From: Desulfovibrio sp.
GTDB lineage: Bacteria; Desulfobacterota; Desulfovibrionia; Desulfovibrionales; Desulfovibrionaceae
NCBI GenBank assembly: GCA_031276785.1
Contig: JAISMK010000056.1
Coordinates: 1-52,543, forward strand
DNA: 52,543 nt
Direction of reading: 5' to 3'
The notes beneath the pieces are model-generated. The model was not told the DNA's origin. It was given only the letters and a program-made list of their open reading frames with translations, and made no database searches. The translations under genes and the position numbers were made by a program. Shown one piece after another: positions 19,524 through 49,455 of this stretch; the stretch's first letter is position 1; each line of letters opens with the position of its first letter.

Positions 19524-19559
19524 TAGCGCAGTCCAACTTTTAAAAGTTAAACTGCTCTA
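19524..19559 (-). repeat. P1 palindromic repeat, long form; TAG is DUF4139 gene stop
   Basis: TAGCGCAGTCCAACTTTTAAAAGTTAAACTGCTCTA; stop codon at 19557-19559 (minus). Confidence 0.92.
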
Positions 19560-21293
19560 TTCCTCCCGTCCGGGATCCAGGGGTTTGTCCGCAGGGGCAA
19601 GAACAGTGACTTTGTGGCTGATGGTCCGGCTTTCCCCAGGTTGCAGGGAGAGTTTCCAGCGGTAGATTTTCGTTCCGCCCTGCCTCGGGTCCAGAGACGC
19701 TTCCTCGGGCGGGGGAGTGGAGGAAATGCGGACGGTAATGGCGCTGTCCCGGATCTGGGGCGAAGGATCCTCCACCCAGGCCAGCACAGGCCTGTTGCGG
19801 GTGTTGCGTACCAGGAAGTCCCAATGCCAGAGGACGGTCTGCTCTTTGTCCAGAAAGCCCTGTTCGCCGGTGACGTGTTTCTGATCCAGGCGGGTGGCGA
19901 CAACCTGAGGATCGGCGCCGAAGTGGAGTAGGGCCGACCTGCCGTTCAGGGAGAGCCGTCTTTCGCCCACAAAGACGGTGTCCACAAAGAACCGGGCCTG
20001 GCCCGGCGGCAGCTCCAGAGCCTCTTTCAGGGAAAGGGAGGCGCTGAGAAATCCTTTGGGATTCAGGGCGGGGCGCAGGGTATAGTGAAATTGGGCCGGG
20101 TATTCGTTGCTGGCCAGGGGCACGGTGGTGGCAATGCCGCTTTCTATGTCGCGTCTGCCCAGGTTCCACAGACGGAAGACGCCTTTTTCCTCTTCCGCGG
20201 CGGCAGCGCCTTCTCTGGGAGGGGCCAGCAGGGCGTCCGGTTCCTCCGCAAGGGATAAACTGGACTGGACGGCGGCGATCTGCGCCGTACTCCTCTGCTG
20301 GCGGGCAAGGTTGCGGGGCCGGGGAGTCTCGGGCGCGGCCTCCGCAGTGCCGGCAGCCGTTATCGCGGCCAGGCGGATATGCCAGGGAGGCAGGGGGAGG
20401 GGATCGGGGTTGGTGTCCGGGCCGGAGGTGGAGATGAACACCTCCACATTTTTCCAGGCGAAGCCGGAGGACTGGAGCAGCGAGGCGCTCTGGGCGATGG
20501 TTAGGCTGTCTTTGCCGGGAAACGCGTTGAGATCGTAGAAGGCGCGCCAGGATCCCGGCAGGGTGTAGGAATAGCGCAGGAGGGAAATTTTGTTGTCTTG
20601 GGTTTCCGTCGGGATAAAAACGAAGCGGCGGCCATGCTTCCGGTCATAGTTGCGCAGGGCGTTTTCGGCCTCCTGCAGGAGGATGAGCTGGTCATCCCGC
20701 AGGCGTTCTCCGGAACTTTTGGCCTTGAAGAGGTCGGGAAGAATGTCCTTGAAGGCGGCATCCAGCTTTAGACGCTCCTCGGCTTTGATCTGACTGTTTT
20801 CTTTGTCGCGGATGCGCCAGAGCCTGAGGCGCAGGTCCAGAGTGTCCAGATTGGCGGTCAGGGCATCCGTCTTGTCCCTGAGGGTGACCAGGGTCTGCAG
20901 CAGGGCGCGGCGATCCGGATCGGTTTCTTCCTCGGGCCGGGTGGCCGGCGTCTGGGAAGAGGGCAGAAGGTTCCCTGAAGGCGCGCCGGCGCGCTGCGGA
21001 GGCAGGTCCGTTTCCGGGTCCGGCCAGGAAAAGCCGCTGGCCGGAAGGCCGTCCACGCTGGCGGAGAAGGAGGCTTGTCCGGCTGCGGCGGGCAGGGTCA
21101 GGAGGAAGCCGCGCCCGAGCCCGGCAATGGTTTCCGGAGGCAGGCGCTCTTCCACCGTGGCCTGAACCTGATTCGGGTAAAAAAGGGCGCTTACGGGCCG
21201 GGCTGGAGGCCTGGCGGCCGCGAAGGCGGCGCCGGCGAAAAGTTGGATGAGGCACAGGGCGGAGGGCAGAATTCTTTTCATGCTGGACCTCAA
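19557..21293 (-). CDS. Exported DUF4139-like protein
   Basis: Signal peptide; YPNQVQATVEERL..., SYTLPGSWRAFYDLNA..., VPLASNEYPAQFHYTLRPALNPKGFLSA, WHWDFLVRNTRNRPV. Confidence 0.6.
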   Translation of the reverse strand: MRSSMKRILPSALCLIQLFAGAAFAAARPPARPVSALFYPNQVQATVEERLPPETIAGLGRGFLLTLPAAAGQASFSASVDGLPASGFSWPDPETDLPPQRAGAPSGNLLPSSQTPATRPEEETDPDRRALLQTLVTLRDKTDALTANLDTLDLRLRLWRIRDKENSQIKAEERLKLDAAFKDILPDLFKAKSSGERLRDDQLILLQEAENALRNYDRKHGRRFVFIPTETQDNKISLLRYSYTLPGSWRAFYDLNAFPGKDSLTIAQSASLLQSSGFAWKNVEVFISTSGPDTNPDPLPLPPWHIRLAAITAAGTAEAAPETPRPRNLARQQRSTAQIAAVQSSLSLAEEPDALLAPPREGAAAAEEEKGVFRLWNLGRRDIESGIATTVPLASNEYPAQFHYTLRPALNPKGFLSASLSLKEALELPPGQARFFVDTVFVGERRLSLNGRSALLHFGADPQVVATRLDQKHVTGEQGFLDKEQTVLWHWDFLVRNTRNRPVLAWVEDPSPQIRDSAITVRISSTPPPEEASLDPRQGGTKIYRWKLSLQPGESRTISHKVTVLAPADKPLDPGREE

Positions 21294-21870: not shown

Positions 21871-21904
21871 GAGCGGTCCAACTTTTAAAAGTTAAACTGA
21901 TCTA
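21869..21904 (-). repeat. P1 palindromic repeat, long form; TAG is trpS stop
   Basis: TAGAGCGGTCCAACTTTTAAAAGTTAAACTGATCTA; trpS stop at 21902-21904 (minus). Confidence 0.92.
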
Positions 21905-22945
21905 AAACCCAATAATACTGCGGACTTCCTCCATGGTTGCCTGGGCCACGGCCCTGGCCCGGGCATTGCCGGCTTCCAGAACTTCCTGGACATAGCCCGG
22001 CCGGGCGCTGAGACGGGCGCGCCGTTCCTGCATGGGGGCCAGGAAGGATTCCAGGCGGTCAAGGAGAATCTTTTTACAGTCAACGCAACCAAGGGCGGCT
22101 TTGGCGCAGCCGGCCCGGATTTCTTCCCTGGCTTGGGAGGGGGTGAGCAGCTCGTGGTAGGGAAAGAGATTGCAGACATCGGGGTTGCCGGGGTCGTGGC
22201 GGCGCAGGCGGGCCTTGTCCGTAAGCATGCCCTTGATCTTGGGGGTTATGGTATCCATGCCCTCGCGCAGAAAAATGCCGTTGTTATAACTTTTGGACAT
22301 TTTGCGCCCGTCCAGGCCGGGGCATTTCGGGGTTTCAGTCAGCCGGGCCTCCGGCTCGGGAAAAAAGTCGCCATACATGTTGTTGAAGCGGCGGGCTATT
22401 TCCCGGGCGAGTTCCATGTGCGGGAGCTGGTCCTGCCCCACCGGAACCCAGCGGGCCTTGTAAATGATGATGTCCGTGGTCATGAGTACCGGGTAGCCGA
22501 GAAAACCATAGGTGGAGAGATCGCGGGAGGTGATCTGCTGCTGCTGTTCCTTGTAGGTGGGGCAGCGTTCCAGCCAGCTTACGGGAGTCACCATGGAAAG
22601 GATGAGGTGCAGCTCGGCATGTTCCTTGATCTGGGATTGCTGAAAGATTACGCAGCGCTCCGGGTCCAGGCCGGCCACCAGCCAGTCTTCAACCAGGGAG
22701 GGGATGAATTCCCGGATGGCCAGAGAATTTTCGTATTCGCTGGTCAGGGCGTGCCAGTCGGCCACAAAATAGAAAGCTTCCATGGTTTCCTGCATGGCGA
22801 CCCAGTTCTCAAGCACGCCGAAATAGTGCCCGAGATGCAGTTCGCCGGTGGGGCGCATGCCGGAAAGAACGCGGTCCCGGGCAGCCGCTGGTGGGGGGGA
22901 GGAGGTTGCGGACATGGCGTCTCCGGGTATGAAAATGTCTTTCAT
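21902..22945 (-). CDS. trpS: Tryptophanyl-tRNA synthetase
   Basis: SGMRPTGELHLGHYFGVLENW, FVADWHALTSEY, DGRKMSKSYNNGI. Confidence 0.96.
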   Translation of the reverse strand: MKDIFIPGDAMSATSSPPPAAARDRVLSGMRPTGELHLGHYFGVLENWVAMQETMEAFYFVADWHALTSEYENSLAIREFIPSLVEDWLVAGLDPERCVIFQQSQIKEHAELHLILSMVTPVSWLERCPTYKEQQQQITSRDLSTYGFLGYPVLMTTDIIIYKARWVPVGQDQLPHMELAREIARRFNNMYGDFFPEPEARLTETPKCPGLDGRKMSKSYNNGIFLREGMDTITPKIKGMLTDKARLRRHDPGNPDVCNLFPYHELLTPSQAREEIRAGCAKAALGCVDCKKILLDRLESFLAPMQERRARLSARPGYVQEVLEAGNARARAVAQATMEEVRSIIGF

Positions 22946-27444: not shown

Positions 27445-27867
27445 TCACGGAACTGCCCGCCTGAGCAGTTCGCGCAGGAACGGTCCTGCCGGGCGCGGAT
27501 CCTCTCCGGCTTTCCGCATGAGATAGGGCTGGCCGGAAAGGGAAGAGCGCGACCCGGCCGTGTCGATGAACTGTTCCGCCGTATTCAGGCGCTCGCGGAG
27601 GTGGTTCCATTTCAGCCGCAGGTGGTCGGCGGCTTCAGCGGCGGAATGTTCCCGCCCGTTGCGGATGAAAGTCACGTCTTCCTGTTGGGCCAGGGAGTTC
27701 AGCAGCCCCTCGACCCGGGCCTCTTCCCCCGGGGGCATGGCCAGGGCTGGCCCGGCGCACAGGAGCCAGACGGACAGCGCGGCCGGCAGCAGCCAGGCGC
27801 CGCGTTGCCGGGGACGGCTTTTTTCAGGGCTAGAGCAGTTTAACTTTGAAAAAGTTGGACCGCGCAT
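27445..27867 (-). CDS. DUF5329-like exported protein; N-terminus encoded by a P1 repeat
   Basis: ARVEGLLNSLAQQEDVTFIRNGREHSAAEAADHLRLKW...TAEQFIDTAGSRSSLSGQPYLMR; ATG 27867 has AAAGGAG at good spacing. Confidence 0.8.
   Translation of the reverse strand: MRGPTFSKLNCSSPEKSRPRQRGAWLLPAALSVWLLCAGPALAMPPGEEARVEGLLNSLAQQEDVTFIRNGREHSAAEAADHLRLKWNHLRERLNTAEQFIDTAGSRSSLSGQPYLMRKAGEDPRPAGPFLRELLRRAVP
27831..27866 (+). repeat. P1 palindromic repeat, long form, inside the 5' coding region of the DUF5329 gene
   Basis: TAGAGCAGTTTAACTTTGAAAAAGTTGGACCGCGCA. Confidence 0.92.
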
Positions 27868-27882
27868 GAAGCACTCCTTTGT

Positions 27883-27910
27883 GAGAGCAGTTGAAAAATG
27901 AAATTGCTCC
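27883..27910. repeat. P1 palindromic repeat, short form, with GGCGGC extension
   Basis: GAGAGCAGTTGAAAAATGAAATTGCTCCGGCGGC. Confidence 0.75.
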
Positions 27911-27948
27911 GGCGGCCGCGCGGGTGCAATCCCGCTACGGCAGGGGCA

Positions 27949-27988: not shown

Positions 27989-29842
27989 TCATCTGCCGGG
28001 CAACAGCTTTTTTACGTCGCGCAGCAGGGAACCGCCTTTGTTCAGCGTTTTGGCCGCCTTTTCCGGGGAGTTCAGCAGATCGCTGACCGAATTTTGCAGG
28101 AAAGCGGCCATGTCAACGCCGCAGGCGGGGTTGGAGAAAGTGCCGCCCACCAGCAGCGGAATGTCCGGGGGCGCTCCGCCCAGGCGCAACCGTACCTTCA
28201 GGGCCAGAACCTCGCTGACCAGGTTGGCGGTCCCGCTCATTTCCGCCGTCAGCAAAGGTGACTCCAGCAGGCCCTGTTTAACCTCCGCCAGCCCCTGTTT
28301 CAGGGACAGGAGCAGAACCAGCCGCTCCAGCGGAAGATTGACCGGCAGGGGAGCCAGGCCAAGCTGCTGGAAATCCTCAGGAACCAGAGAAAAGCCCTGC
28401 ACTTCGCCCTTGTGCAGGCGGATTTCCGCCGTGCCGCTCAGGGAGGACTTAAGCGCCCCGGGGTCCAGCCCTCGGGCGCTGAGCGCCTGGGCGCCGGCCA
28501 GCCGGCCGGAGAGGGTGCGCTTGCCGGTGGCGGCGGCCAAGAGATCGCCTGCTTCCAGATCCTTGATGTCATTGCGCAAGCTCAGATTCGGCAGAGGCGG
28601 ACGCAGATCCGCCTCCGCCACGCCGCTGATGCTGCCTTTGAACAGCTTCAGGCTGTAAGGAATCCGCGCCTGGCCCTTGTCGGACGTTACCTGGACCGCC
28701 AGGGTGGTTAGAGGCATGCCGGCTATGACCAGGGTGTTCGCGGAAAGCCGCAGATCCGCGTCCAGGGCGCGCAGGGCAGCTGGCAGTTCCTGTTCTTTTT
28801 TATCCTGGCGACGGGGCGTTGCGGCCGCGGTGTCCCGCCCCGGCGCGGCGGCGCCTTCCGGGGCGCGCGGTTCGGGCGCCAGGCGCGCGGCCTTGGCCAG
28901 GAGGGCATCCACATCCAGGGAGCCCACGGTCAGTTCGCCCGAGATCCCCAGGCCCGGCCGCCGGGAATCCGGGAGAGACAGTTCCAGGCGGCCTTTCAGG
29001 GTCGTTTCCTCCAGCTTGCCCGTAAAGGCCGCGCACAGGCTGCCGGAGGAGAAGGAGGCATCCCCCGCCAGACTGGCCCGCAGGGAAACATCGCCCCGGG
29101 AGGCCGTGGCCGTCAGAGCATCCACCACGGCTCCGGCCGATCCGTCGGCGCCGGCCCGGACTGTGCCCCGCAGGTCAAAGGCCGTCTTCAGGCCCGCGTT
29201 GACATCCTCCACCTCGCCCTGGACCGTGAGGATCATGTCCTCGTTAAGGCCGACATTGAACACTTCCATAGATTTCAAACCCAGGCGGAGGGAGTCGCCC
29301 CGGGCCAGATTGCGGTAAACGACCTCGCCGTCCGTGAGGCGCACGGCCTCAATGTGCAGAGCCAGGGAAGACTCGGCCTTCGGGGGGGCGCCCTCCTGCA
29401 GGGGGGTCACATCCTTCTCCGGGGCCGAGGGGGAAGATTCGCCCTGCCCCGGTTCCCAATTTTTGTGTCCGGCGGCTGTTTCCGCCAACTTCAGGCGGAG
29501 GCCTTCCAGCAGAATCTCCTGGATCTCCACCTTCCCCCGCAGCAGCGGGGCTAGGGCCAGACGGAGCGAGGCGCTCCTGGCCGCCAGCAGGGGCTCTGCC
29601 CCGAAGACCGGCGGATCGAGGATCTGGAAGGCCCCGGTGTTCAAGCCCAGCCAGGGGAAAAAGGCAACCGAGAGGTCTCCCTGCAGGATCAACTGGCGCC
29701 CCGTCGCCTTGAACACGGCGGCGCTGATGTCCTTTTTGTAGTCATTGGGATTGACAACGGCCAGCAACACTCCCAGCGCCGCCAGCGCGATAAGGGCTAG
29801 GGTGAGGATGCCGGCCAGGACAAGAAGCAGTTTCCGTTTCAT
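27989..29842 (-). CDS. AsmA family protein
   Basis: N-terminal TM then NPNDYKKDISAAVFKATGRQLILQGDLSVAFFPWLGLNTGAFQI; C-terminal AsmA-like repeats. Confidence 0.88.
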   Translation of the reverse strand: MKRKLLLVLAGILTLALIALAALGVLLAVVNPNDYKKDISAAVFKATGRQLILQGDLSVAFFPWLGLNTGAFQILDPPVFGAEPLLAARSASLRLALAPLLRGKVEIQEILLEGLRLKLAETAAGHKNWEPGQGESSPSAPEKDVTPLQEGAPPKAESSLALHIEAVRLTDGEVVYRNLARGDSLRLGLKSMEVFNVGLNEDMILTVQGEVEDVNAGLKTAFDLRGTVRAGADGSAGAVVDALTATASRGDVSLRASLAGDASFSSGSLCAAFTGKLEETTLKGRLELSLPDSRRPGLGISGELTVGSLDVDALLAKAARLAPEPRAPEGAAAPGRDTAAATPRRQDKKEQELPAALRALDADLRLSANTLVIAGMPLTTLAVQVTSDKGQARIPYSLKLFKGSISGVAEADLRPPLPNLSLRNDIKDLEAGDLLAAATGKRTLSGRLAGAQALSARGLDPGALKSSLSGTAEIRLHKGEVQGFSLVPEDFQQLGLAPLPVNLPLERLVLLLSLKQGLAEVKQGLLESPLLTAEMSGTANLVSEVLALKVRLRLGGAPPDIPLLVGGTFSNPACGVDMAAFLQNSVSDLLNSPEKAAKTLNKGGSLLRDVKKLLPGR

Positions 29843-37655: not shown

Positions 37656-37664
37656 ACTGCTCTA
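37630..37664 (-). repeat. P1 palindromic repeat, long form; supplies stop codons for both convergent genes
   Basis: AGAGCGGTCCATCTTTTCAAAGTTAAACTGCTCTA; TAA 37653-37655 (+) and TAG 37662-37664 (-). Confidence 0.92.
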
Positions 37665-38078
37665 ACTCCGGTTCCAGGAGGCCAGATCCTTGACGGCCTT
37701 AAGCAACTCCCGCACGGATCGGTGCCAGTGGCGGACCATGTGCCGCATCAGCCCCACTTCCTCGGATTTGGCCAGCAGGCCGAAGACGGGCACGCCCCTG
37801 CCGTAGGCGGCCCCGACCTCGGCCCAGGCGTCGCAGCCCGAAGGGCCCAGGTAGATGAGCAGATCCGCCTCCAGGGCGGAGGAAGCGCAGAAGCGGAAGA
37901 TGCTCAGCCCCTCTTCGGAACCGATAAAGTTAGCGAGTTCTCGCCGGGAGAGGAAGGCTTCCTCCGGGCGGCCCTGGCGCAGCCAGGATAGGATCTCGTG
38001 CCCCTCCCGCTCCAGATGCTCCGAGAGCATCTCCACGGCGTGCTGGTGTTTCCAGGATGCGGCGATATAGATGCGCAT
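37662..38078 (-). CDS. Nucleoside 2-deoxyribosyltransferase-like protein
   Basis: MRIYIAASWKHQHAVEMLSEHLEREGHEI..., ADLLIYLGPSGCDAWAEVGAAYGRGVPVFGL. Confidence 0.5.
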   Translation of the reverse strand: MRIYIAASWKHQHAVEMLSEHLEREGHEILSWLRQGRPEEAFLSRRELANFIGSEEGLSIFRFCASSALEADLLIYLGPSGCDAWAEVGAAYGRGVPVFGLLAKSEEVGLMRHMVRHWHRSVRELLKAVKDLASWNRS

Positions 38079-41911: not shown

Positions 41912-41948
41912 TAGAGCCGTCCGACTTTTTCAAAGTCAAACTGCTCTA
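41912..41948 (-). repeat. P1 palindromic repeat, long form with paired substitution; TAG is gene stop
   Basis: TAGAGCCGTCCGACTTTTTCAAAGTCAAACTGCTCTA; stop at 41946-41948 (minus). Confidence 0.93.
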
Positions 41949-42407
41949 ATACGTCCATTTCCCTTTGATATACTTGATTATTTCCGTAACTGGAGCGCGT
42001 TTCCGGGGAATAAAGGGGCCGTTCAAGGCGCCTTTCTGATCCCGGGCGGTGCAGATGTATTCAATTTCCACATAGTGCATGTAGCCGATGTAGGAAACGA
42101 GCGCGCTGTCCTCCGGCGTCAGATAGGAGGTGGAAATGGTATCCGGATCCACCTCAATGTAGCGGGCTGTAAAGGTGCCATCGTTATTCCGGCTGACCTC
42201 CTTCTTGAGGGAGGAGGGAAGGACGGCGCGGTTGATGGAGCTGATGGTCCGTCGGGCGAAGGCGTCCAGCTTCTGCTGGACCTGATCGCCGGACGCCTTG
42301 GCAGGCGCGGCCGGAAGGGAAGAGCTGCCCTGCCGTCCCTGGGCGGGTAAGGGGACAATAAAGCAAAGGATAAGGAGCAGGCAGCCTGTGGGCAAAATTT
42401 GTTTCAT
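41946..42407 (-). CDS. Small secreted protein of unknown function
   Basis: 153 aa with signal peptide (MKQILPTGCLLLILCFIVPLPAQG); no recognised domain. Confidence 0.75.
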   Translation of the reverse strand: MKQILPTGCLLLILCFIVPLPAQGRQGSSSLPAAPAKASGDQVQQKLDAFARRTISSINRAVLPSSLKKEVSRNNDGTFTARYIEVDPDTISTSYLTPEDSALVSYIGYMHYVEIEYICTARDQKGALNGPFIPRKRAPVTEIIKYIKGKWTY

Positions 42408-49315: not shown

Positions 49316-49455
49316 GGAAACGCTGATTTATTCCGTTTGGACTGCGTTGCTCGTTCTTTTTGCGGAGGGGCGGGACGGAAGAGTCCAGCCCCTCCGCAAA
49401 AAGAACTCGCGCCTTGCCAAACGAAAAAACTCAGCGTTTCCGAAATCCATTTAGA
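49312..49455. repeat. P4 long palindromic element, copy B
   Basis: CTAGGGAAACGCTGATTTATTCCGTTTGG...; 19-bp perfect inner stem GTTCTTTTTGCGGAGGGGC / GCCCCTCCGCAAAAAGAAC; XerC/D TAG stop inside first bases. Confidence 0.88.

Follow-up and report, generated by a model that had tools for sequence, protein, structure and literature searches.

A palindromic repeat within the predicted signal-peptide codons of a DUF5329 gene in Desulfovibrio sp.

How can a mobile palindromic repeat that carries stop codons in every reading frame come to lie within the first codons of a protein gene? The question is raised by a locus of Desulfovibrio sp. contig JAISMK010000056.1, analysed here over a stretch of 52,543 nucleotides (hereafter, the window), where a short repeat, P1, overlaps the beginning of a gene of the DUF5329 family. 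The minus-strand sequence AAAGGAGTGCTTC-ATG-CGC-GGT-CCA-ACT-TTT-TCA-AAG-TTA-AAC-TGC-TCT-AGC, given in a preliminary description of the locus, is present and starts an open reading frame (ORF) of 140 amino acids (27867-27445). We propose, with a probability of about 0.78, that a solo P1 inserted into this gene immediately after its native start codon and lost its left end, in a near-neutral event. The features concerned are the following.

27445..27867, minus strand: DUF5329 gene (YfeK-like family), 140 codons, for a predicted exported protein (ORF, Pfam, coding score, homologues).
27874..27880, minus strand: Shine-Dalgarno sequence AAAGGAG, 6 nt before the ATG (from the sequence).
27865..27867, minus strand: ATG start codon, outside the P1 repeat, at the position where solo P1 has TAG.
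27831..27863, minus strand: P1 palindromic repeat, a near-consensus copy of 33 nt without the left 4 nt of the consensus, within codons 2-13 of the DUF5329 gene (hairpin folds).
27739..27792, minus strand: hydrophobic core and c-region of the predicted signal peptide, LLPAALSVWLLCAGPALA, ending after residue 43 (translation, hydropathy).
27457..27726, minus strand: DUF5329 domain (profile match).

P1 is a multicopy repeat, whereas the DUF5329 gene is single-copy. The 31-mer GCGGTCCAACTTTTTCAAAGTTAAACTGCTC, at 27863-27833, has 3 more copies in the window at ≤3 mismatches (0 expected in shuffles), and the 2.02-Mb draft genome (183 contigs) contains 132 matches to a 28-nt core of P1 at ≤3 mismatches, compared to 0 for the reversed control. 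That a real multicopy repeat lies within these N-terminal codons, as first described, is therefore confirmed. Copies were examined in sampled stretches around P1 loci, and their alignment gives for solo P1 the consensus TAGAGC[AG]GTCCAACTTTTTCAAAGTTAAACTGCTCTA, of some 37 nt. Isolated elements fold into a 17-bp hairpin of -21.1 kcal/mol on one strand and -15.3 on the other, and all six frames of the consensus contain a stop. One may ask whether the overlap is an assembly or sequencing artefact at the repeat, the genome being a draft of 183 contigs, but the words commonly used in assembly are longer than the repeat, the site is near the centre of a contig of 52 kb and the ORF remains open across it, so that an artefact is extremely improbable.

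The gene itself appears to be intact. Residues 48-137 of the protein match DUF5329 (Pfam PF17263, E=1.6e-26) with a score of 92.9 bits for a cut-off of 27, over model positions 3-93 of 95, which places it in the family, and for enterobacterial relatives the annotation is YfeK family or DUF5329. The minus strand reads AAAGGAG-TGCTTC-ATG, and this opens the ORF. The next in-frame ATG, GTG or TTG after 27867 is an ATG past the predicted signal peptide, so the earlier observation that no alternative start precedes the hydrophobic core holds. If the gene were untranslated from the ATG at 27867, or decaying, its overlap with P1 would be only apparent, and the sporadic occurrence of DUF5329 among genomes of the bacterial family (6/288) could be taken as a sign of this. 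However, the domain is complete over nearly the whole Pfam model, the coding score of the ORF is positive, the Shine-Dalgarno is strong and the frame offers no other start before the hydrophobic core, which makes such an explanation very unlikely.

Where exactly does the repeat begin? Matching to P1 starts at the second base of codon 2, which contradicts the initial proposal that the repeat forms the start codon. The sequence ATGCGCG occurs in this copy alone among those sampled, the family having TAGAGC[AG] or CAGAGC[AG], and ATGC occupies the place of the family's TAGA. In the DUF5329 frame the stop is expected at the TAG with which the element begins, and it is only because the left end was lost that this copy is translatable. 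Deleting the 33 nt (27863-27831) joins the flanks in frame as ATG CGC CCT GAA AAA AGC, encoding MRPEKSRPRQRGAWLLPAALSVWLLCAGPALA. The ATG and its Shine-Dalgarno (AAAGGAG, 6-nt spacer) look native; the preliminary description, which had noted a Shine-Dalgarno just upstream and taken the ATG as repeat-derived, needs correction on the latter point. The converse scenario, in which the start codon was exapted from P1 by a change of TAG AGC into ATG CGC and the upstream Shine-Dalgarno was recruited, draws on the ATG being exactly in register with the consensus TAG. We consider it unlikely, since it requires 3 specific changes within 4 bases while the other 31 nt match the query core exactly, and since the Shine-Dalgarno spacing is already ideal, as for a native pair. 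An apparent sharing of flanks with the P1 copy at C166:11741 was rejected: that site reads TTTAGAGCTG, without ATG.

According to our preferred reading, insertion behind a native start, a solo P1 would thus have inserted just downstream of the native Shine-Dalgarno and ATG, and its left end (TAGA), which would have put a stop in frame, would have been lost. In a Sec-type signal peptide, the remaining 33 nt would lengthen the positively charged n-region by some 11 in-frame residues, and translation would still start from the native Shine-Dalgarno and ATG. These residues would stay cytoplasmic and leave with the signal peptide, so that the mature protein would be unchanged.

Several observations on the signal peptide bear on this scenario. 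The copy contributes about 11 residues, among the first 13 of the protein. By hydropathy, the hydrophobic core begins at residue 26, and would begin at residue 15 without the 33-nt insert; the n-region is accordingly 25 residues long, or 14 without the insert, compared to 3-17 in 7 homologues. Removal of the 33 nt leaves an in-frame signal peptide of normal length. Inspection of the sequence for the A-X-A pattern suggests that signal peptidase cuts after A-L-A (residue 43). If this is correct, no repeat-coded residue is left in the mature protein, and the insert would be tolerated because the added residues belong to the portion that is probably cleaved on export. Insertion of P1 in this gene was likely neutral, judging from these sequence features. 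Another view is that the hairpin was kept behind the start codon for tuning translation or secretion. The mRNA is indeed still predicted to form a hairpin immediately after the ATG, but the coding strand of the gene corresponds to the less stable fold of the palindrome (-15.3 vs -21.1 kcal/mol, isolated elements) and the start region of the mRNA shows no unusual degree of structure (z -1.0 to -1.75), and we regard such a role as highly improbable.

Some of the comparative data weigh against our scenario. The homologues do lack the P1 segment, as the comparison proposed at the outset would have it, but their n-regions are not alignable, so that the shorter n-region is only suggestive. The sole congener with a DUF5329 gene, G005, has a protein 48% identical in a different genomic context; given this distance and context, the empty allele is deduced rather than seen. 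A DUF5329 gene was also looked for behind the AsmA gene (synteny) in the nearest congener, G007, and was absent.

We then asked where P1 copies sit relative to genes. Placement relied on a simple home-made gene caller based on codon usage, and the counts depend on this caller and on the sampled loci around P1. Among 118 distinct copies placed, 86 had no overlap with a gene, 28 were at stop codons, and 1 was clearly inside a coding sequence (CDS). This last is the DUF5329 copy, the sole clear N-terminal capture. P1 thus usually avoids genes, in sampled DNA that is ~83% coding. For the 28 stop-codon copies, the element's terminus doubles as the stop codon of the adjacent gene (27 TAG, 1 TAA), and the strong hairpin strand is in the transcript. 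Stop-codon TA sites represent 5.3% of non-coding TA sites (86/1624), so that ~6 copies were expected there and the excess is over fourfold (binomial p about 2e-11). In G007, the orthologue of window gene 19557-21281 has the same Glu-Glu-TAG end and no P1, which indicates that P1 arrived there at a native stop. Stop codons may be a natural neutral TA target, as an element beginning with G would recreate TAG upon insertion. In the window, the stop codons of genes 19557-21281, 21902-22945, 37662-38078 and 41946-42407 each coincide with the end of a P1 or P1-like copy.

Three other gene calls overlap P1 (L112, L064 and L100). In L112 (273-1799, a GatA-like amidase by eye), the final four codons and the stop come from P1, a small C-terminal capture. 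As gene calls, L064 and L100 seem doubtful and may be antisense.

What kind of element is P1? In 71 of 121 copies (~60%), a second hairpin is present on the left, and P1 is then the right end of a ~127-nt composite that starts TAGAGCATTTTACGC and ends CTGCTCTA (type copy L179 1501-1627). Solo P1 and composite share the ends TAGAGCA/TGCTCTA, hence terminal inverted repeats, and have no coding capacity, as expected for a miniature inverted-repeat transposable element (MITE). TA is found at both ends of 22 solo copies. At one locus, in a repeat array, L111 reads TA-P1-TA where the paralogous sites L121, L129 and L141 have a single TA and no P1; a target-site duplication facing an empty site was found at L111 alone. 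Around it (L111, C68:22600-24972, compared with L121, L129 and L141), arrays of different palindromic elements abut through TA, with or without P1. By its sequence organisation, P1 represents the hairpin at the end of an element that is MITE-like and flanked by TA.

The composite is abundant and was matched in 15/15 genomes of the genus, its right hairpin having species-specific variants with a variable P1 loop. That P1 is genus-wide in exact form was rejected: 14 congeners have no match to the core at ≤3 mismatches, the composite ending there in P1 variants with indels in the loop. No exact P1 was found in viral contigs, and the sole Rfam match at gathering score in the window was a tRNA. No cognate transposase for P1 was identified in the genome: IS630-type DDE_3 fragments lie near two contig starts, their ends not being matched to P1, and the one copy of Y1_Tnp is truncated, at the start of contig C166, with no link of P1 to a REP-associated tyrosine transposase (RAYT) shown.

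Upstream of the DUF5329 gene, two further features complete the locus.

27884..27917, minus strand: a different palindrome, of the GAGCAATTT family, which closes an upstream composite on its right.
27989..29842, minus strand: AsmA-family gene, on the same strand as the DUF5329 gene.

The first had been taken for a second P1 copy at 27883; the palindrome at ~27884-27917 groups instead with the GAGCAATTT family (D1/D2; relatives L002 and L003). Two more repeats were seen. One, of 138 nt with inverted arms, has 93% identical copies at 1421-1558 and 49316-49453 of the window, and further copies, elsewhere in the genome, seem to be neighbours of P1 elements. The other, a stretch of ~150 nt common to two genera, TTTATGGTT[CT]GAAAC[CT]TCTCCCTTCAGGGAGATT...GGATTGAAACA, is located at about 3250-3420 of L072 and, in L162, upstream of the DUF5329 gene; it looks like another mobile repeat.

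How does P1 compare to known systems? Correia elements and the RUP of pneumococcus have TA targets. By description, they and P1 are short non-autonomous palindromes with terminal inverted repeats and TA ends, alike in having >100 copies, mostly intergenic, and in forming clusters of elements; they differ in that no cognate transposase was identified for P1. Repetitive extragenic palindromic (REP) elements, palindromes of 20-40 bp, resemble P1 in size, hairpin and frequent position at gene 3' ends, but P1 is TA-flanked, within a longer composite, and its RAYT link is not shown. Rickettsia palindromic elements (RPEs), of ~150 bp, are frequent in-frame insertions in many genes (review PMC10969869). 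By description, RPEs and P1 are both palindromic repeats inserted in frame in a protein-coding gene, and in-frame capture of a palindrome at the N-terminus of an exported protein, as first suggested, stands. Its Rickettsia-like character does not go beyond analogy: P1 is ~37 nt long, its solo form stops all six frames, coding regions are avoided, and the frequent in-frame insertion that marks RPEs is not seen (1/118 in CDS).

The nearest precedent is RU-2 in Yersinia. This 168-nt enterobacterial repeat, with its own ORF, covers nucleotides 1-90 of YPO1552, start included. The product, of 144 aa, is exported; its residues 1-30, with part of the signal peptide, are encoded by the repeat, and the signal peptides of homologues from other genera are unrelated to it (Delihas 2007, PMC2759123). 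The two repeats are different, and RU-2 includes the start while P1 begins in codon 2. No family name was found in the literature for YPO1552, and its figures (length 144 aa, conservation over 55-138, a signal peptide at 1-41, relatives from Salmonella and Vibrio) resemble those of the DUF5329 protein. If YPO1552 were a DUF5329 protein, the DUF5329/YfeK family would have acquired signal-peptide starts from unrelated mobile repeats on more than one occasion, a possibility suggested by this analogy that we hold as tentative and rather doubtful. If true, signal-peptide n-regions would be a recurrent landing place for MITEs.

The DUF5329 case is real, but similar captures are already known from other bacteria. 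It illustrates neatly, on a small scale, how a mobile palindrome may enter coding sequence harmlessly, by landing in a leader that is probably discarded, and it supplies a concrete N-terminus that can be checked by proteomics. The P1 family as a whole shows which sites are tolerated: mostly intergenic ones, unusually often stop codons, and almost never the inside of genes.
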